This document shows, one piece after another, positions 2,755 through 56,408 of a stretch of 64,000 nt of DNA; the first letter of the stretch is position 1, and every line of letters starts with the position of its first letter. Made by a program: the position numbers and the translations under genes. The stretch covers positions 43,862,552-43,926,551 of the forward strand of contig CM075772.1 of assembly GCA_037974665.1 (NCBI GenBank), given 5' to 3'. A model generated the notes under the pieces. It was not told where the DNA came from. It saw nothing but the letters and a program-made list of their open reading frames with translations, and searched no databases. The stretch comes from Ehretia macrophylla. Lineage: Eukaryota; Streptophyta; Magnoliopsida; Boraginales; Ehretiaceae.

Positions 2755-3294
2755 ATGGTAAACACAACCCCAGCTTTGTATGAATGTGTGTGTGTGTGTG
2801 TGTGTGTTTTATGCTTCTGCATCGGCTTTTTTCTTATTATATAATGCTTCCGCAACTTAACAAGTGTTTTTGTCTCTTGTTTAATAGGGATATAGGATCC
2901 CGGCCATACCAGCAAGAGATCTTCAAATCCTTAATGGAAACAACCCATCTAAGTGGAGGTGGTCAAAAGATTCTGATGGGTGCTCTCTCTTTTTCTTTCT
3001 CTTTCTCTCTCGGCTATAACACACAATTTAGCATGCAGTCACATCATGATATGCAGGCATGCATGTTTTATGTTTGTTTGCAGAACGGAGTTTGCTGAGT
3101 TTGTAGACGACACTATGCTTAACATCGTGGGAGTGATAGACATTAGTCGGATAATAACACCTCCCTATCGAGTATGCCTTATGTACAAACTCGAGGACAA
3201 CCGCCTGAGTATTCGCTTGAAGGGGATCGATGATTATAATCTGAAATATGGTCTCAAAGTGAAGGTTATTGGACTCTGTCCTCGTAAACCCTAA
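2755..3294 (+). CDS. Mini PP2/Nictaba-like protein, gene 1A (101 aa, spliced)
   Basis: Gene model: exon 1 2755-2757 (ATG only), exon 2 2888-2979, exon 3 3084-3294. Introns begin GTAAAC and GTGCTC and end AATAG and TTTGCAG; intron 1 contains a (TG)n tract. The joined frame is open and gives 101 residues. Residues 9-26 contain PARDLQILNGNNPSKWRW, matching the N-terminal part of PP2/Nictaba domains, and the C-terminus keeps the last strands (RLKGIDDYNLKYGLKVK). Compared with gene 2, about 50 residues in the middle are missing, including the usual W-x-x-V/I-E-L-G motif, through an in-frame deletion just after LED (residue ~75). PP2/Nictaba proteins are lectins without signal peptides acting in phloem, cytoplasm or nucleus. 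Sugar binding by this version is doubtful. The copia element starts 23 bp after the stop codon. It could be a slowly decaying gene, but three copies keep the frame. Confidence 0.75.
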
Positions 3295-3337
3295 AATTAT
3301 GGAAACAAATTAATAAAGAGAAGATCAATTTCATGCA

Positions 3338-3362
3338 TTGGATTGTAATTGTTACAATCCAA
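3338..3362. repeat. Perfect 11-bp hairpin just after gene 1A
   Basis: TTGGATTGTAA and its reverse complement are separated by TTG, 44 bp after the gene 1A stop. The same hairpin follows gene 1B (near 29915). It belongs to the inserted copia-side DNA, since gene 1C lacks it. It could form an RNA hairpin in a read-through 3' UTR. Confidence 0.6.
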
Positions 3363-3792
3363 TAACATGCAAGATGATTGTCCAATCTAGCAATCTTCTT
3401 ATCTATTTTTGATTAGGTGTTTAAGATTAGATAATATACATATTATAGTGATAATATAGAATATTAACTCTTCATCTCTCTAGTCTAAAAACACATGACA
3501 TACACTAGCAAAAAGAAAGAGAAAAACCCTCTTATTCTTCACGTGACTCTCGGCCATTGAAGGTAAATAGAGGAAGCTTTTATTTTGTTTAGTAACATAC
3601 ACATAAAGCTTGCTTGTTTGAATACATGCTAGCACCTTTGGTCTTCAAACACTTGGGTAAACCATGGATGCTTGGTGGACCTACTAGTGCCTTCAAGTAA
3701 GGAGGAACCAAAGACTACATCATCAAGCTTGCATCATTTTGAAAGCTTCAAGAGGTATACCTTTGTACTTCTTCTCTTTCATTTAAGTACAT

Positions 3793-3820
3793 ACATGTAA
3801 TCTTCTATCTATGTCCATAA

Positions 3821-3862
<42 letters not shown>

Positions 3863-3890
3863 TTATGGACATAGATAGAAGATTACATGT
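3793..3890. repeat. 98-bp palindrome around an (AT)n tract
   Basis: The left arm, beginning ACATGTAATCTTC at 3793, is repeated in reverse complement at 3859-3890, with (AT)n between the 32-bp arms, so the whole segment is one palindrome. In unit B the corresponding left arm is absent and the right-arm sequence is instead duplicated head-to-tail at 30431 and 30583. The same locus therefore rearranged in two different ways. Confidence 0.85.
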
Positions 3891-3985
3891 TGAATCTTGC
3901 TATTGAGCTTGTAAAGTTTTTGAAATGTGCCTATATAAGGTTCGACCATGGCTAGTATTCATGTTAATCTTCTTAGATCTTGGTT

Positions 3986-4055
<70 letters not shown>

Positions 4056-4195
4056 TGTGTGTGTGTATGGCCAAATGGTGTATGTGTGCCAGTTTGGAGT
4101 TCTTGTGAAATTTTTGTTTGCATGTGTTGATCTAGATAGATCTTGTCTTGCATGTGTAGATCTAGATAGATCTTGTCTTGCATGTGTAGATCTAT
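3986..4195. repeat. (TA)n(TG)n microsatellite and 31-bp repeats
   Basis: TA repeats from about 3986 run into TG repeats to about 4070. Three successive copies of a 31-bp motif with AGATCTAGATAGATCTTG follow at about 4126-4195; unit B has one copy fewer and a shorter TG tract. This is ordinary slippage inside the copia leader. Confidence 0.9.
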
Positions 4196-6199
4196 GGTGC
4201 ATATGTATTATTTTCAATATGCATGTATAGATCTACAACTCCATATGGCCGAACCATGCATGCTAATAAATAATAATGTTTGGATGTAATTATATGTGAA
4301 GAAAGATAGTGCATTTGTTCTTTGCATGATTAACGTTTGACATTTGAAGAATATTTTAAAAGAAAGCTAAAAAGGTGTTGTTATAATAGTTGATTTTAGC
4401 ATTATAAAGTCAAAAGTGATAAAAAGAACAAGTTTGGAATTTTGTGTTGCCTTGGCCGAATCTACAATAGGAGTAGATTAAAAGATCTTGCTTCATGTTA
4501 GACATAAAAGAATGTAAATAGTTGCTAAGTAGTCCTCAACATGTTTGGTCAATATGAGTATTGATGTCACTTTTGTTAACATGAATTTTAAAAGTTAGTT
4601 TTAAACATATTATGATGTTGACATGTATGTGCTTTGAGAAAGGGGACTATTTGATGATTAAAATGTTTAATGGTCAAATTACAACTAGTCTATATGTGTT
4701 AGAATGGCAAGATTTGATTTTACACAAATGGAAGCTCATTTTGATTTTATCTTGGGTTTGGAGATGGTCTAATGTATTGTATAAGATGTTTCTATATTTG
4801 AGAAAAAGTTAAAATGAATTATATGATGATATAATGTTTAAAAGAGAGCTATTAGGCTTACATTAGTGTGCTTGGGCCAATAAGACATATTGATTTGGGC
4901 TTGGGCCCTATATGCATGTTTTAATGTTAAAGTTTAGCCTATTGGGCCACATTATGTGTATTGGGCCATGGACTTGTGTTTTTTTCTATCTTTGGACTTA
5001 AGTTTGCATGATTTACTATAAAGTGTTATAAGTAAATAGGTCAACATGAATTGCATTAATAAAAGGTGTTTTATGAATATGCAATGGACTTGGATGAAGT
5101 TTAATTAATCATATTGATGAATTAATTAAATTAGATTGTTAGCCAACTATGTGATGATTATTATATACTTGATATGAATGATCATACATATGAATATATG
5201 CATTTTGAAATGATAAATTTGATCATGGATTTGGGCTTTAGGGTCAATTTATTGGGTTGCAAATTGAGACATAAGTCTCATATTTATTATTCTTGTTTTG
5301 AGAGAATAATGTAGTAAGGATGATTATGTAATTCTTCAAGAGAGTCTTTTGCAAGACGGCCCAATGGACAATCCAAGGAGTTGGATGCCCAATGAAAATT
5401 TCAAGGAGTTGAAGATCTTTATTAGGGTAGTTTTATTTCTTAGGCCCAAACCCAAGCCCATGATCCACCATTCGTGCATCTTTGCATTCATATTCTATTA
5501 AATGCTATAATTGTGATTGTTAGCTAGTGATATGTTGAATGCATATTTATATGATGAGATCGAATTCAAACTTTATAACTCCCAAAGTGCAAACTAATAT
5601 TAGATTGAAATCAACAGTAAAAGGAGTTTTATCGTAGTCCTCCGCCATCCTAGGTTTTAATAGAACTTGAGATGAATACATTCCAACATAGCCACAAAGG
5701 TTTGAGAAATTGTTTCACAATAAAGTTTATTAAAAGTCACTAGAATGAAACATAGAGATGTGCTTATCTTCCAAAATCTAATAGCCAACATAGCCACAAA
5801 GATTTGAGGTTATTGATTCAATTTGTCGGATAACTAAGCGATGACGGGTATAATCTAACTAGATCACTTAATCAACATAGCGACAAAGGTTTGAAACCAA
5901 AGTAATTTAGGGACTAAATTTGACCATAGCCTATTTAAAGAAATAGACAACAAAGGAGTTGTTGACCTTTGGTATTTATATTTCAACATAGCCACAAAGG
6001 TTTGAGAAATATGTCATATTATAGGAAATTGGTCATCCCACTTAGAGTCTTTTTAGATTCACCATTTTCTCTTTTTGGGAGTATGAGATTCAAAGGAAAT
6101 AGTGGGAGTAACTATTTAATTTGCATAAATTTATAGCTATTTTCTTGTTAGCCTACAATCTTACTATCTATTACTTTTATTTTCTGCAGTTTATATGTT
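4196..6199. other. Copia leader with four CAACATAGCCACAAAGG repeats
   Basis: No coding sequence is recognisable. The motif CAACATAGCCACAAAGGTTT recurs with small changes near 5684, 5786, 5873 and 5984, ahead of the gag start at 6200. Stretches rich in TTGGGCC lie around 4860-4980. An AG acceptor-like TTCTGCAG ends just before the gag start. Confidence 0.6.
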
Positions 6200-6942
6200 A
6201 TGTCTTCTTTTATAAATCCGATTGTTTCCATTCTGAACCACGACTACTTAACCGGACCAAACTTTGAAAAATGGTACAAGAGCTTAAGATAGTTCTCCGT
6301 TTTGAGAGAATTGAGTATGTTCTAGTTTTTGAACCTTTGGCTCCCGTTGATGAAACTGCATTTGAAGCTGATAAGACCATATACGATAGATGGGTCAAGG
6401 ATGACTCACGCTCTAGAGGGTATATCTTATCATCGATGAGTGACAATCTACAACAATATTATGAGAGTATCTCTCGTTCCATAGATATCATTCGATCTTT
6501 GAGGGAATCCTTCAGAGAGCACAGTTGTGGCATAAGGTTCGAATTGACCCAAGAGCTTTTTAGCATGAGACTAAAGCAGGGAGGTGACGTTAACCAACAC
6601 TGCCTAAGGATGATTTATCTGATAACTCAGTTGGAGGTATACGGTTACGTCATGGACCCTCAACTTCAGATTGACTTGATCTTGCTGTCTCTACTACCAT
6701 CTTACTCTTCCCTGATACTAGATATCTATGTGCATAGGATTGATTGCATATTATCTGAGCTACCAGGGATTCTGACTGGCTGGCAGAGATATGGTTTGGA
6801 TATGGAGCCCATTCCCTATGTTGACTCTTCGCCTTCTGTGGCTGGTCCTAGTTACAACAAAAGAAGGAGGATGAGGAGACACAGGCGGAGCTGGGCTACT
6901 TTACACTTACCAGGAGATTTATCTTCAGGAGGAGATATTTGA
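6200..6942 (+). pseudogene. Copia gag, frameshifted, copy A
   Basis: The frame from ATG at 6200 reads into LNHDYLTGPNFEKWYKSL, a typical copia gag start, then hits a stop near 6290. The rest continues one frame over from 6271 (IVLRFERIEYVL onward) for about 220 residues. It contains the usual gag helical region (LRESFREH, MRLKQGGDVNQHCLRMIYL). The zinc knuckle expected near the C-terminus is not present before the stop at 6942. A single-base loss near 6290 explains the break. Copy B at 32879-33696 has the same shift, so it arose before the tandem duplication. Confidence 0.8.
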
Positions 6943-8304
6943 CTGTGAGTAGAATCTTTAGAGTCAAAATATAAACTTCTTTTGTAAAAGGATTTATCTT
7001 TGGGGATCGGTTTAGAATACGATCCTATTTTGAATATGATTGTGAATATGTTTATATTTTATTTTGAAGTTTCTTTTCCTCTTCTAATTAATGATGAAAG
7101 AAATAGTAGTGACTATTTGTTTCGATCTTGTCTTGCTGAGAAAATTTTGAATTTATCTTATGTAAGAAAATGATATGCGTTTTGTATCAAGTTTCATTAT
7201 AGTAATGAAATATTCGAAATGCACATCGAAAGGAAAAATGTCTTCAAATGAAAAATGCACAAATAAACATATTACATAGCATGTTTGAAATGGCTAGAAA
7301 CTAAATATTGATAAATGAAGTTATCATTTGAATCTTAAGACGTTGAGGTGTTCAAGAGTTAAAGATTTAAACAAATAAAGGGCCAAAATCTTTTCTTTTC
7401 TATTTAAAAGAGTTAAATAGATTTACTATTCTTTTGGTAAAATAGTTTGTCCAAAAGGGATAGTGGGAGGAAATGAAGAACATAGCTATCACATTCCTTG
7501 AATCATCGTCAAAAGAAATGTGTTGAGTTTTGATGAATGATTGCACTTTTTCGTAGGAATTAATAACAATTTAAGCAAAACAAAGAAAAACACTAATAAA
7601 GACCATTTATTTTCAATAGATTATTGTTGGAAATGAATGGACGGTTGAAAGATATGCTTGGTTAAAAAAGATGATTGGAGAATATCTCTTTTGTCACCAA
7701 AGTATTTCAAACCATTAAGAGCTTATCTTTGATATGAATGTTTCTACCTTACAGCGTGTATGTTAAATCAAAATCTTAAAATATTAAGATGAAGGGTTCT
7801 AAGAAATGCCTGGTCTCCAGCCTCTGAGGCAGGGCATCTATCTTTTCTTGTAGACTGCCTTCTGACTTTAGTTAGGATAAGATAGTGAAAAGATCACGTA
7901 TCTTACCCTTTTGCCATTTGTAGTCTCCTAGCCATGCAAATGCAAGTACATGGCTCATAGTGATGTAAAAGGTTGCATCGAGAAGGATCTAAGTATACGT
8001 AGTGATGATCTTATTGTAGTAAATAGTGATTTCCAGTTTTTAGGGAATCTTGACAAGTCTGTGGTAATAAGTGAAGTTATTTCGCAAGAATTCACATATT
8101 AATGGGAGCATTATTAGATTAATTGTTAAAGATTGGAAAGAGTTCTGAATAGTAAGTAATCGTTTGTCTTGTTACTTGAGCTAAAAAACATATCTTACAT
8201 TATCCCATTACCAGCAGGTGCGAACCCCATTGGTTAGAACCAAAGGGATTCAAAAGGAAGGCATTAAGATTTTACTCAAAAGGAAGGCATTAAATTTTTA
8301 AGAG

Positions 8305-8699
8305 ACTTTTACTCAAGTTTCAAAGAAAGACTCTTTCAGGATAATTTTGGGGAATGTTGCACATTTTGAATTTGAGTTACATCAAATGAATATTAAGATG
8401 GCGTTTCTCAATGGCAACATTGATGAGACGATGTACATGGTACAACCAGAAAACTTTGTGTTGAAAGACATAAAGAATATGGTTTGCAAATTAAAGAAAT
8501 TCATCTATGCACTCAAACAAACTTTTTGTTAAAGGTACTGCAAATTTCATCAAGTAATTATCTCCTTTGGTTTTGAGATAAATGTTGTTGATAATTGTAT
8601 GTAACTCAGGTTCAGTGGGAGTAAGAATATCTTCCTGGTTTTAAAAATTGATCACATACAGTTTGCTACTAATGATATATGCGTGTTGCACGAAACCAA
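8305..8699 (+). pseudogene. Copia reverse transcriptase fragment, copy A
   Basis: Translation from 8305 gives a clear copia RT start (VSKKDSFRIIL, then HFEFELHQMNIKMAFLNGNI and VCKLKKFIYALKQ). It is broken by a stop after 8529 and continues in pieces (FHQVIISFGFEINVVDN, then FSGSKNIFLVL). The place where copia RT carries its catalytic Y-V-D-D box reads KIDH (8644-8655), so the enzyme is dead even apart from the frame breaks. Unit B has lost this segment completely. Integrase was not recognised between 6942 and 8305. Confidence 0.82.
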
Positions 8700-9330
8700 C
8701 TTGGTGACGTCTCTTTTGTATTAGGGATTCAGATACAACGAGATTGCTCTCAGGGTATTCTTGGATTATAACAAAAGAGCTATATCAATAAGATACTTTA
8801 AAGTTTGGCATGCAGGACAATAAACCAGGTGATACTCCTATCATTAAGGAGAATTCAGAAAATGCCCAAAAGCTAATGTTAAATTTAAGGAAATTTAGAA
8901 GATCCCTTATGCATCAGCTGCAAGGAATCTTAAGAAAACTCAAGTATGTACGTGTCTGTATTGGATGTACATAGTAAGGATGTTAGTCATAAACTAAGGA
9001 ACCCTATAATGGATCATAAAAGAATTAGGACACAAATGGGTTATAAAGAATTGGTAGAGAATAAAAGATTACATGTTCACATATCGGAAGTCAGATCAGT
9101 TGTTGATCATTAGGTATTATGATTCTGATTCTTTGGGATTCCGAGACATTGAGAGATCCATCAAATGTCTAGGTACTTAAGAAAAGAGTACAGAGTGTAT
9201 AGATTTTTATAAAGCATATTGGGACAAACTCTATAATTGCGGATCCGCTTATTAAGGAACAACCACCCAATGTCTTTAATGAACACACTGCTCATAAGGG
9301 TGTAGTATTGTATGAAGATATTACGGTTTA
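8700..9330 (+). pseudogene. Copia RT end, RNase H and pol C-terminus, copy A
   Basis: Frame-hopping translation gives pieces typical of copia pol: GIQIQRDCSQGILGL-like and SYINKIL, MQDNKPGDTPIIK, IPYASAARNL, SDQLLIIRYYDSDSLG (RNase H start) and the terminal IIADPLIKEQPPNVFNEH near 9235-9300, with a stop at about 9330. Several shifts and stops make it non-functional. The same pieces are in unit B at 34706-35366. Confidence 0.8.
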
Positions 9331-9749
9331 GTGGGAGTTTGTATTTTGATGCTTTATGTATGGTTTAGGACTTACTTTTGTATTTGGTATTTAATATTTA
9401 GATATTTTTTGCAGAAATAAAGTATTTAGTTCAAATTCACTCTGTTACATTATGTTCGGTTTCGATCTCACTAAAGTAGGACCAGTTGAAAATAGACATG
9501 TCTGGATCACATTTCATGTAATTTTTCTTGCTACGCATCCATGATTGATCTATGTCATTTGGTTGTATTGATATACGTGACCATTGATGGGTTTAGTTAC
9601 ACTAAATGTGACGAAGACCGCTTTGATCCTATATCGATATAGTCAATGGACGAGATTGTCCGGATATACCCTAAGGTTGTGATAGCAAATTTTGGAGCTC
9701 ATAAAGCTAAACACATTTGTAAGGTTACATATGTGGCCTAGTGGGAGAT

Positions 9750-10283
9750 TGTTGAAAAATTTCAACATGTGGGGCCACACATGTAAATATTTAAATGTGT
9801 TGTGCTATCTGTTAATTAAGCCTAATTAAAGTTATCTAATTAAGAATTAAGTTTAGGCTTATGGGTATAATTGTCAAAGAATTAATGTGTAGATACTTTA
9901 CTGATATTTCTAATTTGATGAGGGGCCAAATAAGAAATATCTAAAACTTATAAATTATATTAGGGTTATGGTCCCCAAATTGTACGTACGTTGTTTTTCT
10001 ATGCATCCTCATCAACAGAGAAAATAGGCTATACCCTTGGCAAAGTTCGTACCAATTTGGAAGATCTCAACCTATTCATCTACCTTCGGTAATGGATTCA
10101 GGTACGCTTCCGTTTTTCTATATTTTTATTCTTTTGATTTGACATGGGTAGTAAAAGTGAATATTAGGATTTGTTAAAGAACTTGTAAAAACATGTTTTG
10201 GGTCTCTTTTGGGTTGAATTTATGAAGTTCTTAATGTTGTTAGAGACTGTGAACATGTTATTTATATTTGGCAAATCCTAACA
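9750..10283 (+). mobile_element. Copia 3' LTR, copy A (534 bp)
   Basis: Begins TGTTGAAAAATTTCAACATG after the purine tract GTGGGAGAT and ends CCTAACA at 10283. The copy in unit B (35784-36317) has exactly the same length. No partner LTR is found upstream. Confidence 0.78.
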
Positions 10284-11085
10284 CATAGGACTAGTTTCAT
10301 GGTGATGAAAGTTCCAAGTGGAAGTAGAAGGACTAGCAATTCAAGTCACTCCGCTAAAGACAAAAAGGAGATTACTAAATGCAACGACTCTAAATTTGTA
10401 GTCTTTTCCAATGAACGGCAATGCATATTGTTTATTAAGTTAATTTACTAAATCAGATACTTTAATTATCTAAAATATGTTACTAAAGAGAATTGGAAAT
10501 AGTAAATAGTTATTTTATACATCGTGCATTATCATACCTAAGTGAAAATTCTGGGATTAGCAGTTCATGTGGCCGCCAAAGATAATTAAAAGGAGGTCGT
10601 GGAATGCAAGAACCGTGAAGAAAAATGAAAATAATATAAAAGGAGTAAAAACACTATATATTTATGTAGATAAAAGAATACTAAAAGACTTGTGCTTTAA
10701 CATGCATAGGTGGATCTAAAATTTTTCTTTTTAATGAAAATTTATTGGCTTTGTAGACTAAGAATACCCCTATATTTAATAAATGTTGCGGGATTAGTGG
10801 TGAATATGAAACAAAAAAGAAAATATAGTCTTAAACGGGTATGGTTATAATGATTTTCAAACCCGTTAAATATATATGAGTTACGATTTTTATTGTAAAT
10901 TATCTTAAACGATTATGGTTATAGTTATTTCTTTTTTTTGCGACAATCGATTCTTAAATTTGATAACAATGGCGTCTTAATAAAATAAACGTTGACAGAG
11001 ACTTTTTAAAAATTTAAGAATTGTTTTTGATCTGAAATATGGTCTCAAAGTGAAAGGTATTGAAATCTGTACTCGTAAACCCTAA
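10284..11085 (+). pseudogene. PP2-like gene remnant 1'A: promoter fused to exon 3 end
   Basis: From 10284 the sequence follows the gene 1 promoter (two ~50-bp elements at 10329-10381 and 10552-10607, then the MITE-free site near 10890). At TTTTTGATCTG (about 11022-11032) it jumps straight to the last 17 codons of exon 3 (GAAATATGGTCTCAAAGTG) and the stop at 11083-11085, followed by the normal family 3' flank. TATA box, exons 1-2, both introns and most of exon 3 are gone. The junction has a short match (ATCT), suggesting deletion by end joining. It proves that another PP2 copy once stood here. Confidence 0.85.
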
Positions 11086-12670
11086 AATTATGGAAACAAA
11101 TTAATAAATCCGACTGTGTATGTCTTTCCTAGCTACTGTGTGTTATATGGGACAATTAGATATGGTGGTCCCTTTAATTATGATAATATTTCTATATTTG
11201 TATGTATGAATGTTTGTGAATATACCCAATAAAATCAGCCGGAATAAATAAATGATCAGAAATTTAAGTCCTGCTTTTGTGTTTCCTAACTAGTAGTCTT
11301 TGATGTTTGCTTTTTCCAGTTCCTTTAAATCTATTGTGAATTGTATTGATATTTATGTTGAAATTTTGCTTATGACGACTCTTTCTGAGTAAATAAGCAT
11401 AGCAAATTCTCATGTCGAAATCAAATAAGTAACGATAATGATAAAGTTGAAGGATCAACTTTGAAAAATTCAAAAAAAATAAAATTAGGAAGTGAGTTTG
11501 TTCCATATAAAAATAAATAAAGCCAAGAATGTGACGTTCAATGAACAAAAATTTGACACTTATTTTGGGCTGAAATTCATGTTCGTGGGTCCGACTATCA
11601 CTTTATTTTTTGATGCAACGTTTTGTTTAAATTCTATAATAAAAAAAATCAGCAATTATTCCACGATTTATTTTACAATTTATTCTAAAAATAGATAACA
11701 TAAATAACTATTCAACTTTTTGTTTTTGCATACTTAAATGATTTGCAAGATTAGTGGAGATGGTTACTGACTCTTCTCTTAATTAGTAACTATTTTCACT
11801 ATGATATTTTTTGGTAATTCTTATTACTTGTAATTGCTTTTAGCTTTTTGCAAAAATCTGATATAGGAATTTTGTAAAAAGAGGATGTTTGTGTCTCTTT
11901 TAGATTAGATTCGACAACGAGGCAGGTAAGTCCTGCGTCCTCTCATGGAGGTTTGGCTCTATCTTCCCCTCCATTCTTGTACGTCTTTTTGATATCAATA
12001 TAATCGTGTAGGATAGTTACCTTAAAAATAAATAAATATTTTCAAGATGCATTTTAGAAATAATCATAAAACCGAAATAAATGTCATTATTTAAAATTAA
12101 TCCCAAAAATAAAAAGGTCATCAGACTTCTTTGACCTTTGAAACCTTAGTCAGACGATGATTGAGTTTTGGTATTTGGTAATAAAATGTTATATAATAAT
12201 GAAAAATACTATAAAATGTAATACAGTAATATCTTGCTAATAAAGAATGACCAAGGAATAGCCATATAATACACACCCACAAACTTGCACATGTTTATAA
12301 TTTTTTTTTTTTTTGCCAGACACGTTTATAAACTAGAGAGAGGGAGTGCTATGATGATATCGTTTACAATGTGGAGTATTCCACGTTATAAGGTAATATA
12401 TATTGTCTTTCTATTTTTGTCTAATCTGCAATTTGAAAAGAAAAAACCCTTTGTTTTCTTTTCTCTTTATGATTTTTTTGTCTTATCTTATTTTCATTTC
12501 TTTCCCTGACGAATCGAAACATATCATAAAAGGAGAAATATAGCAGATAATAACAAGCCACGACGGAAGGCGACTACTACAATTTCTTTTCGGTGACGTC
12601 ACACCAACTAGGAGTTTTGCATCCGACATATTAAATGAATAATACAATAAGTCATGTTCTAAAATTATAT
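11086..12670. other. 3' flank of remnant 1' and intergenic DNA
   Basis: Starts with the family 3' flank, including poly(A)-type signals (AATAAAATCAGC near 11228). The stretch 11490-11830 matches 62725-63072 in unit C. Around 11905-12030 a sequence with TTGATATCAATATAAT resembles a LINE 3' tail, but it is too short to be sure. From about 12400 it becomes related to the gene 1 upstream flank. No gene is seen. Confidence 0.6.
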
Positions 12671-12819
12671 TTAATTGGATTTGAGAGCATATAATCTATC
12701 ACTGGCATAGGAGCCGATCATCAGTGTGGTTTTAGGCACGCATTCATGTAGGTCCGCACGCAATACAGTGAACTATGTGGTGCCGCTCATCTTGTATGGG
12801 AAATGCCGCTCTTGGATAT
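12671..12819. mobile_element. 149-bp insertion in the gene 2A upstream region
   Basis: Gene 1 upstream DNA reads AAAATTATATAATTTTGG (about 964-981). Here the same sequence is split by 149 bp with ATAT on both sides. No convincing inverted repeats or coding sequence are visible, so the element type is unknown. The identical insertion is at 38703-38851 in unit B. Confidence 0.6.
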
Positions 12820-16536: not shown

Positions 16537-16639
16537 TAATCGTATTGCTGTGTTAAAATGGAAACAAATGAATCCGACTGTATGTCTTTCCTTGGTGTTC
16601 TGTTTATCTCTACTAGTGTGTTAAGGGACTAGATATAGT

Positions 16640-42563: not shown

Positions 42564-42666
42564 TAATCGTATTGCTGTGTTAAAATGGAAACAAATGAAT
42601 CCGACTGTATGTCTTTCCTTGGTGTTCTGTTTATCTCTACTAGTGTGTTAAGGGACTAGATATAGT

Positions 42667-42752
42667 GACCCTTTAATTATGATAATTCTATGTATGTATG
42701 TATGAATGTGAGTGTACCCAATAAAATCAGTCGGAATAAATAAATAGCAAAT
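42667..42752 (+). terminator. Polyadenylation region of gene 2B
   Basis: AATAAA near 42720 and AATAAATAAATA near 42736, as in gene 2A. Confidence 0.5.
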
Positions 42753-43328: not shown

Positions 43329-43609
43329 TTTTGAAGATAATAAAATAATATAATAAATTCCTCTCTAATAACTTAAATTTTTAGAAGATGTGATCACTTG
43401 ATATGGTATCAAAGTTTAGGTATCAAAATGTCATATATAGGTTCAAAAATTACCATCGTTACTCATTTAAGAAAACATTAAAACTGTTCAAGTACAATGT
43501 TCAAAAATTAATTTCACATGCACTTGTGGGGCCGTGTTGAAGATAAAAAAATAATATAATAAACTAATCTCTAATAGTTTAAACGTTTAGATAAGGTGGT
43601 CATTTAACA
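43329..43609 (+). mobile_element. Very small TRIM element, copy B
   Basis: Orthologue of 17302-17582. The left repeat now begins TTTTGAAG instead of TGTTGAAG. The primer-site-like word TGGTATCAAAG is closer to the Met-tRNA consensus than in A. Confidence 0.78.
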
Positions 43610-43854
43610 CAGTATTACACCATCCAATACTAAAAGTTATGTGACACAACTCTCATATCGAAGGACTAAGAGCAGATATAGAATATTTTTCTTAATGATG
43701 ATTAAATAATTTTAAAAATCAAAATTAGTAGAGATGTGAGATTAAGTGGTAGCAAAATGATTTAGTAGACTAAAAATTACAGAAATATTTTAAAGTATTG
43801 TGTGCGATCAATGACGACAAGTACAGTCCCCACGACCCAAAGAGTAGATATGGT

Positions 43855-46800
43855 GTGACGCCCGAGACTTAGGGAATGCATACATCACTTATTGTGTACA
43901 TTTTGTGCATTTTTCACTTAAAACCTTATTTTTTTGAATAGTTACTATTCACATAAAAAATTTCTATTCCTTTTTCTGAATTTCATATTTTTTCCTTAAT
44001 ATTTGCTATTTTAGATGCATACATCCATTGAGTTTGCGTGCATAGCATAGCGGGAGCAACAGAAAAAAATTCGTAAGCGAGCGTAATGAATAGTGAAAAT
44101 TTTCTGGCATTTTCAATTTTGTTTCCACTTAAAATTCTTGTCCCATTTTGTATAAAAACTTGATCAATTTGCATTTTAACTTGACCCAAAACACCACCCA
44201 TTGACTCTTTGACCTTTGACCAACTTATAAAATACATTGTCTTCATTCAATAGTGTTAAAACAAAGCAAAATCAAAGCAAAAAAGAAGCCAAAACTGTAA
44301 GCTTCATGGTTGTCTTCAAAATATTCATTTTTCATTTTATTGCTCAAATTCTTCCTAGCTTGCTCAAGGATCATCCTTAGGCCCCACACAAGCTTTCTTC
44401 CTCTTGCATTAAGATAAGGGAATGCATCCATATGTGAGATTTTTCAACTCTAGTTGTAAACTTTATTTTTATGATCTATTAATATATTGGCAATCTATAC
44501 TTGTTTATGCTTCAAATACTTTCTATTGTGATTATAGAACATTGTTTTATAGTTAGATTACAAAGTTTATGGCTAAAAATGAAAAATGTAGGTTGAAGAA
44601 GACGATGAATAGTAAAAAATGTGAATAGTAAACCCTTGTTGTGATTTTTGTTCCGAATTGTGTTTGTTTAGGTGCTAGAAATGTTAGAATGCTTAAATGT
44701 ATGATTTAATTGGGTTGTACTTTGGAAAAATTGTGAAATTAGCCTTGAATTGCAAAGGGGATGTTTTGATCAAGTGTGGAATTCTCTCAGTTTGAGTGTT
44801 GGCATTGTCTTGGGAGGTCATGGAAGTACTTTTGGTGTGGTTATGGCATTAGTTGGGTGATCGGTTAATGTAGTCATAGTACAAATCGACTAAGGGGTCA
44901 AATGGAATTTTGTGGTTGTTATGGTTTAAAACGGGTTTTCTTTGCATTTAAGTGGATCATAATGTGGATAGGTTTGAGTGGTGAAATCAGATTTCTAGTA
45001 TCATAGCTCGTTGGGATGTGATAGCTTGAGAAAGTTCGAGAAATGAATAGTATTCTATTGAGTTTTGTGACTTTTGCTCGATTGATGGTTTTAGTGCTTG
45101 CATTAGGTGCCATAAATGTTACAGTTGCTAGATTGATGCCCAAATTGAGTAGATTGTGATTGGAGTTTGTTATGGTTGGTTTGAGTATAAAGGAGCTTTC
45201 TTGGTGGTGTTGGCCGCAAATGGATGATAATGTTTTGGATAGCTTAGTTGTGGTCCGAAAGTGAATGTGAAGTAGGTAGAATGCTTTTAATGTGTTTCCG
45301 TGATTATATGGCAAGTTTTGAAGTTATGGGGTGCAACGGGGGTTTAAGGTGGAAATGGTTAAGGTTGAATGTTCATAGGTTAAAAGGAGTTTGTAGAATA
45401 TTATTAGGATGATTGAATGACTAGAATGTGGTTTACATGGCTTTGGTTAGTATAAGCTTGAGTTGGGCTAAGGGATTAATTGGGGTTTAAGGTTAGACTA
45501 GGGTTAAAATGTGGTTTCACGTGGTTGAGAGGTGCCGTAAGATGTTTGGGAGTGATTAGTGTGGTTGAATTTGGGATTGGACGCCTTAGGTGTTGGTGTG
45601 TTACTTGTATGAGGCTTTTATGTTAATATCTAATGTCTTATTGATTACTTGTTATTAGGTGTTTAATTATGTTGTATTCATTTCTAAATTTATGAATCTT
45701 ATGTGATTTGCTAGCTTTGTGGTAAAGGGAGTGGATACGAGTGTTCGTGGCTTTCGAGTTGAGGGATGCATTTATATTTGCATTTATAATTATTGCTAAA
45801 CATATGTAATTCAATGTTTAAGTAAGGTATAGTGATATAATGAATGGATGAAATGTAGTATAGTGTTTTCTAAGTGTATATACGTGTACTCTATCCTTAT
45901 TATGATTTGATAGATAAAGTTGCATATAGTTCCATAAAGAAAATGAATTGAATAGTTGTTAATAAAGTTATAGTCTAGTTGAAGTATGTTAACAAATTGT
46001 TATTGCTTGAATTGAATGTGGTTAAATGCTACTTGATTGAATCAAGGAAAAGTGTTAATAGTATGCTAAAGTATGATTTTAAATAAAATTGGGTGAGTTA
46101 AGGTACTAATTGGATTAGCTTTGGAAAGTGAAATGCATGTTTGCTTAACTTATATTGAATGATTATGGTTGAATTTCCGATGTATTGTCTAATTATCGTA
46201 CTTGTGTTGTTATGTGCCCGTTTATGTGTTATTGTATTATATGGTTATCTTGCGGTTTCTTGTGTCACCTTGTAAATTCTCGTGTTACCTTGTGAATTAT
46301 CGCGTTCGTGTCAGGTTGCGCAACCTTTTGGGCATGGTCGACAGTTCAACTCCAGGCAGCATCGCGCTGTCAGTTTAGCTCACCTACCATGGTTCCCAAT
46401 CCCTCTCGCTAGGGTATAATCTTCTACCTCAGAGGTTTGGCCACCTCGTTGGAGCATAAAGATCTACCCTGGGAGAGTAGATTCGTATATCTTGCTCGTG
46501 CTCGTGGTCACAAAGATCTCCACAAATAAAGCATTTCATTTCACATCTCATAAGCAAATACAACAAAAGTCACCTTCACGGGTAGAGTTAGGCTATGCAA
46601 TGTTCCAATATCTACAAAAAATAGTAGTTTCTAAAGTATTGAGATATTTATGTTCTAAGCTAACTTTATCCCTAATATCAGAAAAGATTTTAGCGATAAC
46701 ATGGTCCTTTGTTTGCAGAGTGGCTCCAACGACTTTTCCATTACATTACGCTTTAACAAAATTCAAGTCAAAATTAAATAAAAATTCAAATGCTTGTTAT

Positions 46801-46871
46801 AGCGAAATTTTAGACAACATCAAAATTCAAATGTTCGCAATAACAAATTTCAAGTGCAAATGGGATTCATT
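43855..46871. mobile_element. Outer part of the unit B-specific insertion, unclassified LTR-like DNA
   Basis: Starts (T)GTGACGCCCGAGACTTAGG exactly where B departs from A (shared ATATGGT ends at 43854). Such a start is common in plant gypsy LTRs. Open frames here, such as 44919-45314 on the minus strand, show no recognised family. The text around 46320-46500 (GGGAGAGTAGATTCG and similar) resembles LTR non-coding DNA. No primer site or paired LTR was identified. Confidence 0.4.
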
Positions 46872-46876
46872 AATTT

Positions 46877-47427
46877 TGTAATATCCCACATCGATGGAAC
46901 ATAGTCTTTGTGAATAGTTTATAAGTAGATGTTCTGGGTATAAGGAATAACTTAGATTAACTATTTTGGACTAGTAGAAAAAAGGCCAAAGTAGTTGTTT
47001 TTAATGCCTAAAACACTAGTCGCGCTTACAGGCCTGAGGGTCTGGGGGTGATAGAATGGTATTCAGAGCAGGTCATTAACCAGTGCGGAAGCAAAGTTCT
47101 ATGTAGGGCAAAGTGCTATACCTAGAAGGCTGGTGAAAACTACCTCTTGAACCTGTAGGAGCCAATTCTAAATCCTACACAATCTGATTGGTCCTGGGTA
47201 TGTATGCCTTTAATGAGGACGTCAGGTCCTTAACTGGGGTGTGCGTAATATCCCACATCGATAAAATATAATATTTGTGAATGATTTATAAGGGGGTGTT
47301 GTGGGTATAAGGTAGTAAATTGGGTTAACCATTTCGGGCCAGTAGAAAAGAGGCTCAAGTAGTTGTTTCTTATGCCTACAACACCAGTCTCGCCTGAGAG
47401 TCCGGGTTCTGAGCTCAAAGTGTGACA
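46877..47427 (+). mobile_element. TRIM retrotransposon (551 bp)
   Basis: Terminal repeats at 46877-47053 and 47244-47427 share TAATATCCCACATCGAT, AGTAGAAAA(A/G)AGGC and AGTAGTTGTTT. TGGTATTCAGAGC, a Met-tRNA primer site with one inserted base, follows the left repeat at 47057-47069. A perfect 5-bp target duplication, AATTT, is at 46872-46876 and 47428-47432. No coding capacity. Just downstream (about 47433-47500) the LTR end plus flank, GTGTGACAAATTTGATAACC, is repeated once more, a mark of local duplication. Confidence 0.85.
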
Positions 47428-47734
47428 AATTTGATAACCAAAAATTATTAAACTATTCTGGGCTCGGGGTGTGACAAATTTGATAACCAAAGATCATTAA
47501 ACTAAAATTAAAATTTATGAACACAAATTTGAATTTTTTAAATGAGTTCCCTATGATAGTAAAAAATGAAACTAGGCTCCTATATATATTACAAAGTCAA
47601 AAAATATCAAACTTACATCTAAGCTCGTATCGACGTACTAAAAGAAATTACAAACTGGAAATGGACCATATGCTTCATAATGTGCCATTCACATACCCAT
47701 GTGCTTGTTGTATCTTATATGAAAACTTTATTTT

Positions 47735-49116
47735 TGTGAAGAATCATGGGGTGTCGTCTTAAAACCAATTGGTGCCAAGTGGAGTAGTCCAAGATCTTAT
47801 TAAGTAGTTTAAGAGTTTATGATTTTTCTATGTGGGACAAGCGTATATTCTAACACTCTCTTTCACGTGTGACCTGATTTGAGAGGGGTCACATGTGAAA
47901 GATTGAACACGCATAGACCTTATTTTGAGATGGTCACACTTGGAAGATTGAATACATGTGAACCGAATTTTTGAGATGGGTCACACATGGAAGATTGAAC
48001 ACACATGTGGTAGATAACACATGTGGAAGATTGAAAGTGCGTAGACTATGCACACACAAAGATTGAAGACAAGTAGACCTGATTTGAGATGGGTCACACG
48101 CGGAAGATGAATAAAACTAGACCATGGGCCTAGCTCTGATTCCATGTGAAGATAACTGGGTCTTGTAGTGATCATGAGAGCTTGTCCAGTCTTGTTCAGT
48201 CATATCCAGTTGTTCCCACAAACCTTTCATCTGAGAGTAAAATTCAGAGATACGTTGTCCAGGGAGTTGTTTTAGATGACGAATCTCAAGCTCAAGTTGA
48301 TAACGACGAGCAAATTCAGTCTGTAAATATGTATATTGAAGGGTATCCCAGATCTTCTTTGCAGAATCAGAATCGGATAAAGTCATACCAATAGATTTAG
48401 AGCAATTTATACGAATCAAGGCAATAATAAAATGATTGGTTTGTTCCCAATCAGAAATTTTCTTGACATCTGCAGTAGGCTTTGCAGATTCTCCATTAAC
48501 GATAGTCCACAGTCCAAAACCATTCAAGATAGATATCATAGCACGTGACCAATATAGCCAATTAGTACCATCAAACTCAATGTTGATAGTGCTGAGAGAA
48601 AATTTATCACTAGATGCCATGATTACAAAAAAAAGAATAATAGAATCTGCAACCCAAAGGAAATAAAAAAAAATGAATTGATTATGCTGATATTAATAAG
48701 GCATCCACAAAGAAGTCAACAAAATTGGCTTGTCCAGTGTTCAACACGAACGAGACGAAGATAGCAACGTTAAAACTTATTGGCAGCACATGAATCGGGC
48801 ACAGCGGCGGACAAGATCTGAAGGTTGTGTTTTTTTTTTGGAAAGATTGGAGACTTGTGCGGTAACAGAGAAAAAAAAACAAAAGGAAACCTACGACAGT
48901 GTATTATCGGCGGTTCAATTAGCGGCAGCCACGGATCGTAAATGGCTTATCGTGAGAGGATAATCACGATGACAAGAGCTTAAAGCTCTGAAACCATGTG
49001 AAGAATCATGGGGTTCCATCTTAAAACTAATTGGTGCCAAGTGGAGTAGCCCAAGCTCTTATTAAGTGGTCTAAGAGTTTATGATTTTTCTATGTCGACA
49101 AGCGTATATTCTAACA
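47735..49116 (-). mobile_element. Small gag-only LTR element (TR-GAG-like), 1.38 kb
   Basis: Direct repeats of 121 and 120 bp (47735-47855, 48997-49116) end each side. On the minus strand they run TGTTAGAATATACG to GATTCTTCACA. The 5' repeat is followed by TGGTTTCAGAGC, a Met-tRNA-type primer site (plus 48985-48996), and a purine run (GAAAGAGAG) precedes the 3' repeat. A single gag frame lies between. Degenerate ~50-bp repeats with GGTCACA and GGAAGATTGAA fill 47870-48120. No target duplication was seen. Size and content match the published TR-GAG class of non-autonomous plant LTR elements. Confidence 0.75.
48117..48620 (-). CDS. Copia-type gag of the small LTR element (167 aa)
   Basis: An open frame starting MASSDKFSLSTINIEFDGTN matches the N-terminal half of plant copia gag (FDGTNWLYWSRAM, WEQTNHFIIALI, AKKIWDTLQYTY, RISEFYSQMKGLWEQL). 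It stops before any zinc knuckle, and no protease or polymerase follows. It could encode the particle protein that makes the element mobile with help from an autonomous copia element. It is intact over this part, which suggests a fairly recent insertion. Confidence 0.78.
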   Translation of the reverse strand: MASSDKFSLSTINIEFDGTNWLYWSRAMISILNGFGLWTIVNGESAKPTADVKKISDWEQTNHFIIALIRINCSKSIGMTLSDSDSAKKIWDTLQYTYLQTEFARRYQLELEIRHLKQLPGQRISEFYSQMKGLWEQLDMTEQDWTSSHDHYKTQLSSHGIRARPMV

Positions 49117-49245
49117 CTAATATAATTACATACAATTCCATTTACATCTTCACTTAAAAAAATTTTATGAATGTGTTTGTCTAGTCGACACGCCAAAATA
49201 ACTAACTTTGATATTTTTTCCTCTTCTTTTGGCATATCAAATAAG

Positions 49246-49250
<5 letters not shown>

Positions 49251-49338
<88 letters not shown>
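49251..49338. repeat. (AC)n(AT)n microsatellite at the LINE tail
   Basis: AC repeats (about 49251-49275) followed by AT repeats to about 49338, directly between the LINE 3' end and its target duplication. Confidence 0.95.
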
Positions 49339-49343
<5 letters not shown>

Positions 49344-49586
49344 GAGGGACAGTGCCCTCCGAAATTTTATTAATACCAAAAAAGGTTACAAAAACGAAGG
49401 GGGACATATAGTCTAACCTTTGTGGGAGGATGGGAGACTTACATGCCCAATCATCCATCTATTCTAAAAGGAGTACACACACTCCTTTTTAGAAAGACCT
49501 ATAAAGAAATTAAATCTAGAAAACAAATTACAACCTAATCCTATGTCAGACCCTAAAACAAAGCAATCCAAGCTTATCTATCTTGA

Positions 49587-49817
49587 TCATTCCTTGAAGC
49601 TCTTGTGGTCTATTGCATCATGCAGTATAGTCGCATACAATGTTTTAGCTCCCAAATTAGCAAGATAGTCAGTCGATTGATTACCTTCATGGAGGATGTG
49701 AGTTAGAGTCCCATTGCAAGCATTTAGATATCTTATTGCTCTCCTTAGTTCCTGAGTAATATCCCATGAACCTTGTTTCTTCCTGCACACAAACTGAACT
49801 CCACTTAAAGAATCCAT
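49587..49817 (-). pseudogene. LINE RNase H C-terminal open frame
   Basis: A 76-residue frame that is the last part of the RNase H-like (RVT_3) domain. It includes TQELRRAIRYLNA and HILHEGNQSTDYLANLGA, typical of plant LINE and RNase H-like reverse-transcriptase relatives. The first part of the domain (from about 50030) is separated by stop codons. It is not an independent gene. Confidence 0.8.
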
Positions 49818-50442
49818 TTATGTCCAAACATTATAAAAGCCCAAATCTAAACACAATAGACCGTAGTTAAGAGCAAGTAACTCAACTTTTATATCAAATT
49901 GAGTGGAGAAAGGCACATAGAAACATCTAAGCAAGTTGCCTTTACTGTCTCGAATAATACCTCCTCATCCTGCTAGCTTTGATTGAACTTGAATACTTCC
50001 ATCAACATTAAGCTTCACATAATTGGAAATAGGTTTTAGCCATCGAACCACTTTAATTTCTTTCCTTTTCTTCCCAAAAACAGTACAATTGAAATGTTCA
50101 GAAATAGAGATATCACCCTTCCATTACTTCCATTTAATAAGGCCAACTTGATTTAATTGGTACACAAGATTACACACTTTCCAGATAACTTTCTGCCCAT
50201 ACATCTTCATGTTTAAATTTCTAGAAACATTTCTTGCTTCCCAAAGAAACCAAATGATATATGAAGGAATCATGATTCTCACATGACCTTTACAAATGAA
50301 GTCTCCGAAAAATAACCAAATAGAAAGCCAGTGAGAAAATTCAGAGTTAGGGCTATTAACTCCAAACGTATTAACAAAGAACATCCATCAAATAAGCATA
50401 TATATAGAACATGGTAAATTTAAGCATACATATAGAACATAT

Positions 50443-52316: not shown

Positions 52317-52462
52317 GGTAACAGGTTGAGAGATGACTGTGGTACTAGGCTGTAATCTAGTGGCAGCAAAAAACAGATATAAGATATAACAATCAGTTCA
52401 AAAGAAGATGATGTTCCAGTCTATACACAAAATACTATTCTCTCTCTCTCTCTCTCTCTCGG

Positions 52463-52818
52463 CGATTCCTCAGCTTGTAGACGACACTGTGCTTAACATC
52501 GTGGGAGTTATAGAAACTAGTCGGCTAATAACACCTCGCTATGGAGTATACCTTGTCTCTCTCTCGAGGACAGCCGCCAAAATGTTGATGAGGCATATGC
52601 TGCTGTAGTGACTGAAGAATATATACCACTTGATTTGTCTCTCACCACCTGTTCCGAGCGATAAATATTGGAGCTACGTTGAGCTTGGAGGTTATCCAAC
52701 CAGCCCAGAAGGCGGTCATCGTGAGCTGCTGATTATTCGCTTGAAGGAGATCGATGATTATAATCAGAAATATGATCTCAAAGAGAAGGGTGTTGAATTC
52801 CGTCCTCGTAGACCCTAA
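52463..52818 (+). pseudogene. PP2-like pseudogene 3B
   Basis: Same truncation and same frameshifts as 3A, with single-base differences (for example GGCGGTCATC against GGTGGTCATC). It was dead before the tandem duplication. Confidence 0.85.
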
Positions 52819-54440
52819 ATTTATGGAAACAAATTAATAAATCCGACTGTGTATGTCTTTCCTAGTGTGTGTTATATGGGACGACTAGATATGGTGGTCC
52901 CTTTAATTATGATAATATTTCTATATATATATATATATATATGTATGTATGAATGTTTGTGAGTATACCCAATAAAATCAGTCAGAATAAATAAATGATC
53001 AGAAATTTAAGTCCTGCTTTCGCGTTTCCTAACTAGTAGTCTTTGATGTTTGCTTTTTCCAGTTCCTTTAAATCTATTGTGAATTGTATTGATATTTATG
53101 TTGAAATTTTGCTTATGACGACTCAAGTGAATACGTACGCGTTTCTCTTTCCAAGTAAATAAGCATAGCAAATTCACATGTCAAAATCAAATGAGTAATG
53201 ATCAATGGGAAATTTGATGATAAAGTTGAAGGATCAACTTTGAAATTTTTTTTTAAAAAAAAATTAGGAAGTGGGTTTGTTTCATGGGGACTTCCATCAA
53301 CAAGCACTTTTTGCATAAAACAAACATTGAGATCGGGTTGACTTGACAACTTCCTTTTATTTCCTTGGCTTCTTGCCTTGTTTTCATGTATTTGTTGTAG
53401 TTTATGATCTTTAGTACATGCATGGATCTTGGTTTGTTGTAGTTTATGATCTTTAGTACATGCATGGATCTTGGCTTCTCTTCGCCATTGGGCATCTTCG
53501 ATGTACTTTGACTCTTATACTTTTCTTTCATTAATAAAGGCGCAGATTGGATTTCTAATTATGGTCTTAACTTAGATTTGGGTTGACACAGAATTGGTCA
53601 GGTTCCTATGCAATTACGAGAGCTTTTGGAAATGGATAAAAGGGGAGTTTTGACTCTAAGGAACATGATTGGGTGAAATACCCGACTCAGGCCTCCCTTT
53701 GATCAAAAAAAAAAAAAAAACCTCTCTAGCTGAATTAGCCAAAAAAAAAAAAAGGAAGCAGTAAATGATAGCCCCAACTAGTTATAAGTTGCATCCGCTT
53801 TGTGAAAAGACAATTTTAGAATGTTTATTGTCTTTCTATTTTTGTCTAATCTGCAATTTGAACAAGAAAAAAACCTTTGTTTTCTTTTCTCTTTATGATT
53901 TTTTTACACTTCTGAATCCAAACATATCATAAAAGGAGAAATATTACAGATAATGACAAGCCACGATGCAAGACGACTACTACGATTCTTTTCGGTCACG
54001 TCACATCAACTAGGAGTTTTGCATCCGACACATATTTAAATGAATAATACAATAAGTCATGTTCTAAAATTATATAATTTTGGTATGCAAAACACAATTT
54101 CATTTAGATACATAAATTAACTAACCTTTACCTAAATCCCTATTTGGTCATTAAGCTTTTAGTATTAACGCTATATTAGGATTCACTTTTTTGGAGAAAC
54201 GAAAAGGAAGGGAATTAATTAATTGAGGAATTCCTTCATCTGTTTAGATTTACCTTTGGAAGGAAGGAAAATAAATGAAGGGATTAAAATATCTTTTAAG
54301 GTTAAAATTTAGCAATCCTCTCAGTTTTGAATTTTTTGAAGGAAAAGCAAAGTCTATAAAAAGTCCACTGACCCGGTTTGTTCCTTTTGTTATTATTGCT
54401 GCCAATGATGTCTAACAACCATTGATCATGTGTAAATCGT
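52819..54440. other. Unit B/C junction and gene 1C upstream flank
   Basis: Family 3' flank followed by the gene 1 upstream flank, as at 26271-27900. No gene is seen. The CATGCATG repeat pair is at about 53390-53475. Confidence 0.7.
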
Positions 54441-55862
54441 GGGATTAGCAATCTCCCTCTGCAAAAGACAATAACGATCGAGGTAGTTATGAAAGAGAAG
54501 TGAAGTTGATCCGAGGTTAGGTATTTTTAATGTATTTATATTTTCACCATTGCATTGTACGGGCATAGGACTAGTTTCATAGTGATGAAAGTTCCAAGTG
54601 GAAGTAGAAGGACTAGCAATCTACGTCACTCCGCTAAAGACAAAAAGGAGATTGTTAAATGCAACGACTCTAAATTTGTAATCCTCTCAGTGAACAGCCA
54701 TTCATATTGTATATTAAGTTAATTTACTAAATGAGATACTCTAATGATCTAATTTATGTTATTAAAGAAATAGGAAATAGTAAATAGTTATTTTATACAT
54801 CTTGCATTATGGTATCTAAGTTAAAATTCTTAGATTAATAGTTCATGTGGCCGCCAAAGATAAAATGAGGTCGTGGAAAGCAAGAACAGTAATAAAAAAA
54901 GAAAATAATATAAAAGGAGTAAAAACACTATTTCTTGGATAAAAGAACACTAAAAAAAAGATTACTAAAAGACTTATGCTTTAACATGCAGAGGTGGATC
55001 TAATTTTTTTCTTTTTAATGAAAATTTTAGATCTTTGTAGACTAAGAATACCCCTATATTTAATATATGTTGTGGGATTAGTGGTGAATAAGAAGCACAA
55101 AAGCAAATATAGTCTTAAAACGGTTATGATTATAGTGATTTTCAAACCTGTTAAATATATATTAGTTACAATTTTTATTATAAGTTATCGGGTAATTTAC
55201 CAAAATGGTTTTAAATCTTTGTATTTTTTGACATTTAAGTCTTCTATTTTTTATTTTAGACAAAATGGTCCTTCATCTTTTATTTTTGTGACAGACATTA
55301 GTCCTTGGAGTAAAATCTGTCAAAAAATAACGTTAGTGAGCACGTGAATGGCACGTGGCTGCAAAATACATAAACTTTACGATTCTTATATTTTATCGTA
55401 TGACAATTTGACCCCTAAAGATTTGTGAATTTTGAGGTCACGTGCTATCCACGTGCTCACTAACATTATTTTTTCTACAGATTTTGCTCTAAGGACTAAT
55501 GATTATCACCAAAATGAAAGATAAATGACCATTATGTCCAAAATGAAAGATAGAAGACTTAAATGTCAAAAAAAGTAAAAATCTAAGACTAATTCGATAA
55601 ATTATCCTAAGTTATATTAAACGATTATGGTTATAGTTATTTTTTTATTTTTTTGCGACAATCGATTACTAAATTTGATATCAATGGCGTGCGTTGACAG
55701 AGACTTGTTAAAATTCTAAGAATTGTTTTTGATCTAGCGGTTAGCCACGTCATATTAGAACAAGACATGCAACTTCCTCCTCCTAGAAATACATGACGAG
55801 CTCGAGAAAGAAAAGGCAGACGAAAGAAGTTTGTGACCTAGCATTACCATAAAAGCAACACG
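54441..55862 (+). promoter_or_regulatory. Promoter region of gene 1C
   Basis: The ~50-bp element is at 54441-54490, 54609-54662 and 54829-54881. The MITE is at 55200-55607. The TATA position reads TAGAAATA (55784-55791), as in gene 1B. Confidence 0.52.
55200..55607. mobile_element. Mutator-like MITE, copy C
   Basis: 408 bp, same ends and 9-bp flank (TAAGTTATC at 55191-55199). One change lies in the inner CACGTG region (TTTGAGGTCACG against TTTGCGGTCACG). Confidence 0.85.
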
Positions 55863-56408
55863 ATGGTAAACACAACCCCAGCTTTGTATGAATGTGTGTG
55901 TGTGTGTGTGTGTGTGTGTTTTATGCTTCTGCATCGGCTTTTTTCTTATTATATAATGCTTCCGCAACTTAACAAGTGTTTTTGCCTCTTGTTCAATAGG
56001 GAGATAGGATCCCGGCCATACCAGCAAGAGATCTTCAAATCCTTAGTGGACACAACCCATCTAAGTGGAGGTGGTCAAAAGATTCTGATGGGTGCTCTCT
56101 CTTTTTCTTTGTCTCTCGCTCTCTCGGCTATAACACACAATTTAGCATGCAGTCACATCATGATATGCACGCATGCATGTTTTATGTTTGTTTGCAGAAC
56201 GGAGTTTGCTGAGCTTGAAGACGACACTGTGCTTAACATCGTGGGAGTGATAGACACTAGTCGGCTAATAACACCTCCCTATCGAGTATGCCTTATGTAC
56301 AAACTCGAGGACAACCGCCTGATTATTCGCTTGAAGGGGATCGATGATAATAATCTGAAATATGGTCTCAAAGTGAAGGTTATTGGACTCTGTCCTCGTA
56401 AACCCTAA
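55863..56408 (+). CDS. Mini PP2/Nictaba-like protein, gene 1C (101 aa, spliced)
   Basis: Exon 1 55863-55865, exon 2 56000-56091, exon 3 56198-56408, with splice sites as in 1A and 1B. The protein begins MGDRIPAIPARDLQILSGHN and differs from 1A/1B at several sites (for example AELEDDTVL for AEFVDDTML, IDTSRLI for IDISRII), often agreeing with pseudogene 3 or gene 2, so it looks closer to the ancestor. It carries the same internal deletion. Unlike 1A and 1B it keeps the native 3' flank, with an altered poly(A)-type region (CCGATAAAATC near 56555). It is the mini gene with the most complete surroundings, apart from its TAGAAATA box. Confidence 0.76.
   Translation: MVNTTPALYECVCVCVCVCFMLLHRLFSYYIMLPQLNKCFCLLFNREIGSRPYQQEIFKSLVDTTHLSGGGQKILMGALSFSLSLALSAITHNLACSHIMICTHACFMFVCRTEFAELEDDTVLNIVGVIDTSRLITPPYRVCLMYKLEDNRLIIRLKGIDDNNLKYGLKVKVIGLCPRKP

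Follow-up and report, generated by a model that had tools for sequence, protein, structure and literature searches.

PP2 lectins are abundant phloem proteins. They are described as enigmatic in PMC6048116. Arabidopsis PP2-A1 is reported to repress aphid feeding from the phloem (PMC3030531; PMC4131498), Nictaba domains are reported to differ in the glycans they bind (PMC4131498), and citrus is described as having 26 PP2 genes, among them two tandemly duplicated pairs (PMC12966013). Here we analysed a stretch of 64,000 nucleotides (C9:43862552–43926551, the window) of a 1.58-Gb plant genome in 20 contigs. The window lies inside a large PP2 array and carries three shortened PP2/Nictaba genes, the minis 1A, 1B and 1C. 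We consider it probable that the mini is a decaying deletion derivative of a full-length PP2/Nictaba gene, carried along by duplication in a fast-turning tandem array. The intact members of this array are, with good confidence, under diversifying selection, and the diversifying array is the result worth following, more than the mini gene.

A shared in-frame deletion in the mini PP2 genes

All three minis lie on the plus strand: 1A at 2755–3294 (exons 2755–2787, 2888–2979, and 3084–3294, the last including the stop), 1B at 29326–29871 (exons 29326–29358, 29465–29556, and 29661–29871), and 1C at 55863–56408 (exons 55863–55895, 56000–56091, and 56198–56408). In a splice model consistent with the family, the exons of each gene measure 33, 92, and 211 nt and join into an open frame of 111 codons, rather than the 101 residues of the original prediction. 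This model is supported because exon 1 (MVNTTPALYEC) is identical in the full-length sisters L034 and L037.

The three genes have in common one in-frame loss of ~50 codons in exon 3, with the junction near 3204–3206 in 1A. A DNA search of the genome with exon 3 of 1A recovered five junction-bearing copies: 1A, 1B, 1C, D (C9:44200866, 97% identity), and E (C9:44265075, 95% identity, with the match stopping at 197 of 212). D and E lie 0.3–0.4 Mb from the others, and each differs from 1A by 2–4%. The predicted in-frame deletion of about 150 bp is thus real, its junction is identical in all five copies, and on the sequence evidence it is shared by descent. Undeleted relatives align on either side of the junction with offsets of 147–156 nt; sizes taken by hand from these alignment offsets were 147 nt against F44009, 150 against F43360, 151 against pseudogene 3, and 156 against F43275. 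Pseudogene 3 does keep the middle part with the W-x-x-V-E-L-G motif, as had been noted (it reads WSYVELG). The closest relatives of the minis are F44144 (3′ half lost), F43509 (exon 3 interrupted), and F43412 and F43360 (parts missing); the nearest open full-length pair is F43096 (= L037) and F43275 (= L034).

1A, 1B, and 1C are not independent survivals, as they sit in three units of a recent tandem duplication. Self-comparison of the window delimits unit A (1–26577), unit B (26578–53129, with a middle part unlike unit A), and the start of unit C (53130–56712), which carries 1C. The period is ~26.5 kb and the main blocks are 94–99% identical (1–4004 with 26578–30576, 1–3317 with 53130–56431, and 8675–17827 with 34703–43854). 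Identity between units is patchy, at 92–100% per 500-base step, as would be expected from duplication with gene conversion, and the second introns of 1A and 1B are identical. Because 1A–1C belong to this recent ~26.5-kb duplication, the term "conserved" is misleading for the mini genes. An open frame, splice sites, and several copies are no proof of function when the copies stem from a recent segmental duplication.

We propose that a single in-frame deletion removed ~50 codons of exon 3 and that segmental tandem duplication then made further copies of the shortened allele, two steps seen directly in the five copies with the same junction at two places. The minis would then have drifted without detectable constraint, as the substitution pattern and the lesions support, and they would now be without expression.

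Two features of the first intron and its surroundings were also observed. A (GT)n microsatellite opens the first intron and doubles as its donor in the minis and in many array genes (about 2785–2807, 29356–29384, and 55893–55919; its length differs between copies). In 1C, a frame of 188 residues at 55842–56408 is open across both introns, so intron retention would not halt translation. Neither 1A nor 1B has a listed frame of this kind.

Lesions, substitutions, and predicted fold of the minis

Every mini copy is altered at some family-conserved element. In the DNA examined, 21 of 23 non-mini contexts have the TATA box TATAAATA 71–92 bases ahead of the ATG, whereas none of the five minis does. 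Its position reads TATAAAGA in 1A (2676–2683, plus strand), D, and E, and TAGAAATA in 1B (from 29247) and 1C (from 55784). In 1A and 1B, the native 3′ flank breaks off 23 nt past the stop, with a Copia-type gag domain ~3 kb further on. Where the family has its first donor, D carries AT in place of GT, with in-frame GT alternatives in the repeat, and in E a 49-bp deletion took the stop and the last four codons. The claim that splice sites and frame are kept therefore holds for 1A–1C but fails for the wider set.

The gag domain belongs to the sequence that follows 1A in place of its native 3′ flank (3318–10280, plus strand, right border approximate); Retrotran_gag_2 matches fall within 6268–6939 and, after 1B, within 32947–33693. 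The flank was probably replaced by a retroelement insertion. No long direct repeats or long terminal repeats were detected around the element after 1A at the settings used.

Among the five minis, 14 coding sites vary, 13 nonsynonymously and one synonymously; the probability of at most one synonymous change among 14 without constraint is 0.07–0.12, depending on the transition weight. Mini E, whose end is absent, was omitted from the codon models. For exon 3 of the four minis with complete ends, dN/dS (ω) was 3.8, which did not differ significantly from 1 (twice the log-likelihood (lnL) difference, 2ΔlnL, 2.24; chi-square p = 0.13), and 7 of 60 null simulations reached an ω as high. An ω of 0.3 fitted ~5 lnL units worse, and purifying selection on the minis is disfavoured. 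The original prediction had named a dN/dS near 1 or frame-breaking changes as results that would speak against it; a value of 1 is not rejected, purifying selection is not seen, and the end of one copy in five is broken. Variable sites make up 14 of 336 exon and 12 of 192 intron positions, which are not distinguishable (p = 0.30). Under neutrality, 54–62% of such mini sets are expected to lack a nonsense change, so four open frames in five need no selection. With 13 nonsynonymous changes to one synonymous, ω = 1 not rejected, exon and intron variation indistinguishable, and the end of E broken, the idea that the deletion was kept for a function, be it as partner, inhibitor, or new small protein, is unsupported.

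The spliced mini of 111 residues scored 36.6 bits against PF14299 (cut-off 25), covering profile positions 5–87 of 148, whereas exon 3 of 1C alone stayed under the cut-off with 18.3 bits. A search of viral contigs with the mini protein gave six pattern stretches and no relative. AlphaFold2 was run on exon 3 alone as a single chain, with alignments of 18 (L034) and 21 (mini 1A) sequences. The full-length sister L034 gave a mean predicted local distance difference test score (pLDDT) of 65.8 and a predicted template modelling score (pTM) of 0.60; its model matches Nictaba (PDB 8ad2, E = 3.9e-07, template modelling score 0.79 of the query) and also phloem lectin PP2 entries. For mini 1A, the mean pLDDT was 49.1 and the pTM 0.26, and the model had no PDB match better than E = 6.8; such a low-confidence model says little alone. 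The suggested structure prediction of the shortened protein by itself, made here for its exon-3 part, thus yielded no fold. The deletion takes out strands 46–51, 57–60, and 75–82 of the sister model, three of its seven predicted strands, together with the fixed W and LG, and the mini lacks the complete β-sandwich with its conserved W and LG core. Because these strands and residues are gone and the exon-3 remainder is not predicted to fold, the mini most likely makes no working lectin.

As candidate pseudogenes, the minis combine an end lesion in E, a donor change in D, and promoter or 3′ changes in all five with open frames in four and an ω at which 1 is not rejected. Several observations weigh against decay. 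In four of the five minis the frame runs through to the native stop, with most splice positions intact. TATAAAGA may still act as a TATA box, as the full-length array gene L042 also has it, and the alternative donor in D may still work. Exon variation is numerically under intron variation, though a CT tract holds much of the latter. The mini ω of 3.8 exceeds 1, though not significantly, and nonsynonymous change on the mini branch, in a three-point estimate, is somewhat above neutral (9.5/188 versus 7/301, p = 0.13). When F43096, F43275, and F44009 were added to the four minis, ω was 2.6 (chi-square p = 0.0054), and none of 60 null simulations was as high.

These ω values, the 13:1 ratio among the five copies, and the four open frames would be expected if the mini were a functional small protein under positive selection, with a new role drawn from the diversifying array. 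We regard this as unlikely, since the minis alone fail to reject ω = 1 and the three-point estimate assigns ~9.5 nonsynonymous changes to the mini branch, compared with ~23.5 and 25 for the branches leading to F44144 and F43275, respectively. Each copy, moreover, has a lesion in promoter, 3′ flank, donor, or stop, and no fold is predicted. Far less credible is the earlier proposal that the mini protein acts on the PP2 dimer, poisoning or modulating it by pairing with the full-length form. PP2 proteins dimerise, and the mini keeps an N-terminal stretch that aligns with Nictaba residues 7–74 and, weakly, the last strands. However, it is missing three strands as well as the fixed W and LG, its exon-3 part has no predicted fold, and there is no sign of the purifying selection needed for a conserved interface, given the ~5 lnL cost of ω = 0.3 in exon 3 of the four copies; an inhibitory small partner of the microProtein type would be expected to keep its interaction surface under such selection. 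Just as improbable is that the extra copies are assembly artefacts, with haplotypes laid in tandem: the ~26.5-kb units are near-identical, but they differ by 1–6% in a patchy manner, the middle of unit B is different, and D and E are located elsewhere at 2–4% difference from 1A.

Selection in the surrounding PP2 array

A search with the Pfam PP2 profile gave at least 154 matches genome-wide; the matches listed are single exon pieces. By hand count, at least 46 of those listed fall in C9:43.00–44.54 Mb, the array that surrounds the window, and further clusters lie at C9:66.0–66.3, C14:57.4–58.1, and C20:18.7–19.0 Mb. Neighbouring family members have not all decayed, as had been thought, since many of the at least 46 listed array matches have open frames. 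Full-length array members have both a PF14299 match and the Nictaba fold, the latter from exon 3 of one member.

For the codon models, 20 array exons were hand-picked as mostly open and full-length, and the sample therefore leans to intact genes. The models assume no recombination between copies and use only gap-free codons of exon 3. L057, with an incomplete 5′ end, was dropped from the alignment. L042 and L049, whose proteins are the same as those of L041 and L044, were dropped from a set of 16, which also omits four members of a longer subtype and additionally includes F44009, L034, and L037. The 16 members gave ω = 2.07 (2ΔlnL 26.8) and a set of 11 gave ω = 1.88 (2ΔlnL 9.3). None of 60 simulations at ω = 1 was as high for either set, the maxima of ω and 2ΔlnL being 1.46 and 5.7 for the 11 and 1.50 and 13.8 for the 16. 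Both alignment halves and three sequence subsets were above 1 (ω 1.60–2.33; 2ΔlnL 5.9–21.0, against an uncalibrated chi-square). By comparison, two control PP2 arrays of the same genome, analysed in the same way, gave ω = 0.52 (11 unique of 12 sequences; p = 0.036 versus 1) and 0.53 (8 sequences; p = 0.00015); the C14 control consists of 8 sequences, with L003–L008 left out.

Among the 16 members, W74, L79, G80, L11, G15, G109, L110, and V112 (sister numbering) are invariant in amino acid, and positions 18, 68, 71, 81, 83, 95, 106, and 120 have 8 to 13 changes each. Loops have 3.6 changes per site and strands and helix 3.0; the corresponding values are 3.6 for the part deleted from the minis and 3.2 for the rest. 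This pattern suggests a folded protein with a diversifying surface, not drifting pseudogenes.

Coding and noncoding change were also compared in the group of minis and full-length sisters. Between mini D and F43275, differences fall on 43.5 of 255 nonsynonymous sites, on 3.5 of 75 synonymous sites, and on 7 of 248 promoter and trimmed-intron bases (21 of 308 when a 3′ stretch of poor alignment is included). Nonsynonymous change is in excess of noncoding change (p = 3e-08, or 2e-04 including the 3′ stretch), as it is between F44144 and F43275 (49/195 nonsynonymous versus 9/246 noncoding). Diversifying selection on the intact members would account for minis and full-length sisters being so far apart at the amino acid level.

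Diversifying selection also meets contrary observations. The chi-square is too liberal for the set of 16, as 10 of 60 null simulations exceeded 3.84 and 3 exceeded 9.3 (largest 13.8). The longer subtype (L038/L039/L040/L043) of the same region has ω = 0.88, not different from 1, and shallow pairs give ω of about 0.6–1.3 (one pair with 6 nonsynonymous to 0 synonymous changes). Noncoding divergence of core pairs is 0.09–0.13 in most longer alignments, moderately under the dN of 0.15–0.20; for deep pairs it was taken from masked local alignments, as unmasked upstream DNA is partly non-homologous (K up to 1.0). A literature search, with most subscription journals outside its range, found no title on selection acting on PP2/Nictaba.

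The window also carries two copies of a full-length PP2 gene, gene 2, on the plus strand: 15755–16536 in unit A (72.6 bits to PF14299 for exon 3) and 41782–42563 in unit B, with identical exons and introns. Since the introns likewise show no difference (0/309), this identity is attributed to recency or gene conversion, and purifying selection was rejected as its cause. The identical patch lies in the block 8675–17827 versus 34703–43854, whose 500-base steps differ by 0–3%, and may be a patch of recent exchange. Three further gene 2 copies were found in the 200 kb examined, two with exons 2 and 3 identical and one interrupted. Exon 1 of gene 2 has one extra base relative to the family, which shifts the usual donor out of frame; the repeat also offers a second GT that is in phase.

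Pseudogene 3 is a frameshifted exon-3 relic on the plus strand in unit A (25911–26270), with a second copy in unit B (52459–52818, plus strand). A PP2 3′ end fragment of 64–65 bases occurs at six places in 264 kb; the window copies (11022–11381 and 37054–37413) have downstream flanks that are alike. In the unit B stretch without a match in unit A (43855–50442), a minus-strand Copia-type gag domain lies within 48117–48692. At 60628–60996, an open frame resembles the end of an ABC transporter nucleotide-binding domain (23.1 bits, under the cut-off of 25).

Comparison with known lectins and diversifying families

Like the PP2/Nictaba lectins (PF14299; tobacco Nictaba, PDB 8ad2), the spliced mini scores over the family cut-off and aligns with Nictaba residues 7–74; unlike them, it lacks ~50 residues with three predicted strands and the fixed W and LG, and it has no fold match. 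Full-length array members, by contrast, are predicted to share the fold of the phloem lectin PP2 (PDB 7vs6 and related entries). The full-length exon-3 model also matches the structure of hinokiresinol synthase (PDB 8jmq, E = 2.0e-04), and this match suggests that the PP2 fold can take new roles; 8jmq is a synthase by its entry title. The citrus family, with its two tandem pairs, differs from the at least 46 listed matches in one 1.5-Mb array, in which sampled intact members have a dN/dS near 2.

A role like that of PP2-A1 in aphid feeding is a possible driver of selection in the array, and the full-length members may face changing glycoproteins of phloem feeders or pathogens. We tentatively suggest that the 1.5-Mb array could be a lectin-based recognition or anti-herbivore repertoire that diversifies like NLR or venom families. 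Such a repertoire would perhaps keep a fixed β-sandwich core, with other positions under recurrent positive selection and tandem birth and death of genes, and small derivatives such as the mini gene might arise as by-products or themselves serve as new weapons. If one genome has a PP2 cluster with dN/dS near 2 and two others near 0.5, this would suggest an arms race at the phloem, and the array result would single out genes and residues worth testing.

NLR genes and venom toxins form birth-and-death arrays under diversifying selection. The sequence of the PP2 array is neither NLR nor venom. Like those families, it has tandem copies, several pseudogenes, and ω above 1, and in the group of minis and full-length sisters the coding sequence is more diverged than the introns and promoter.

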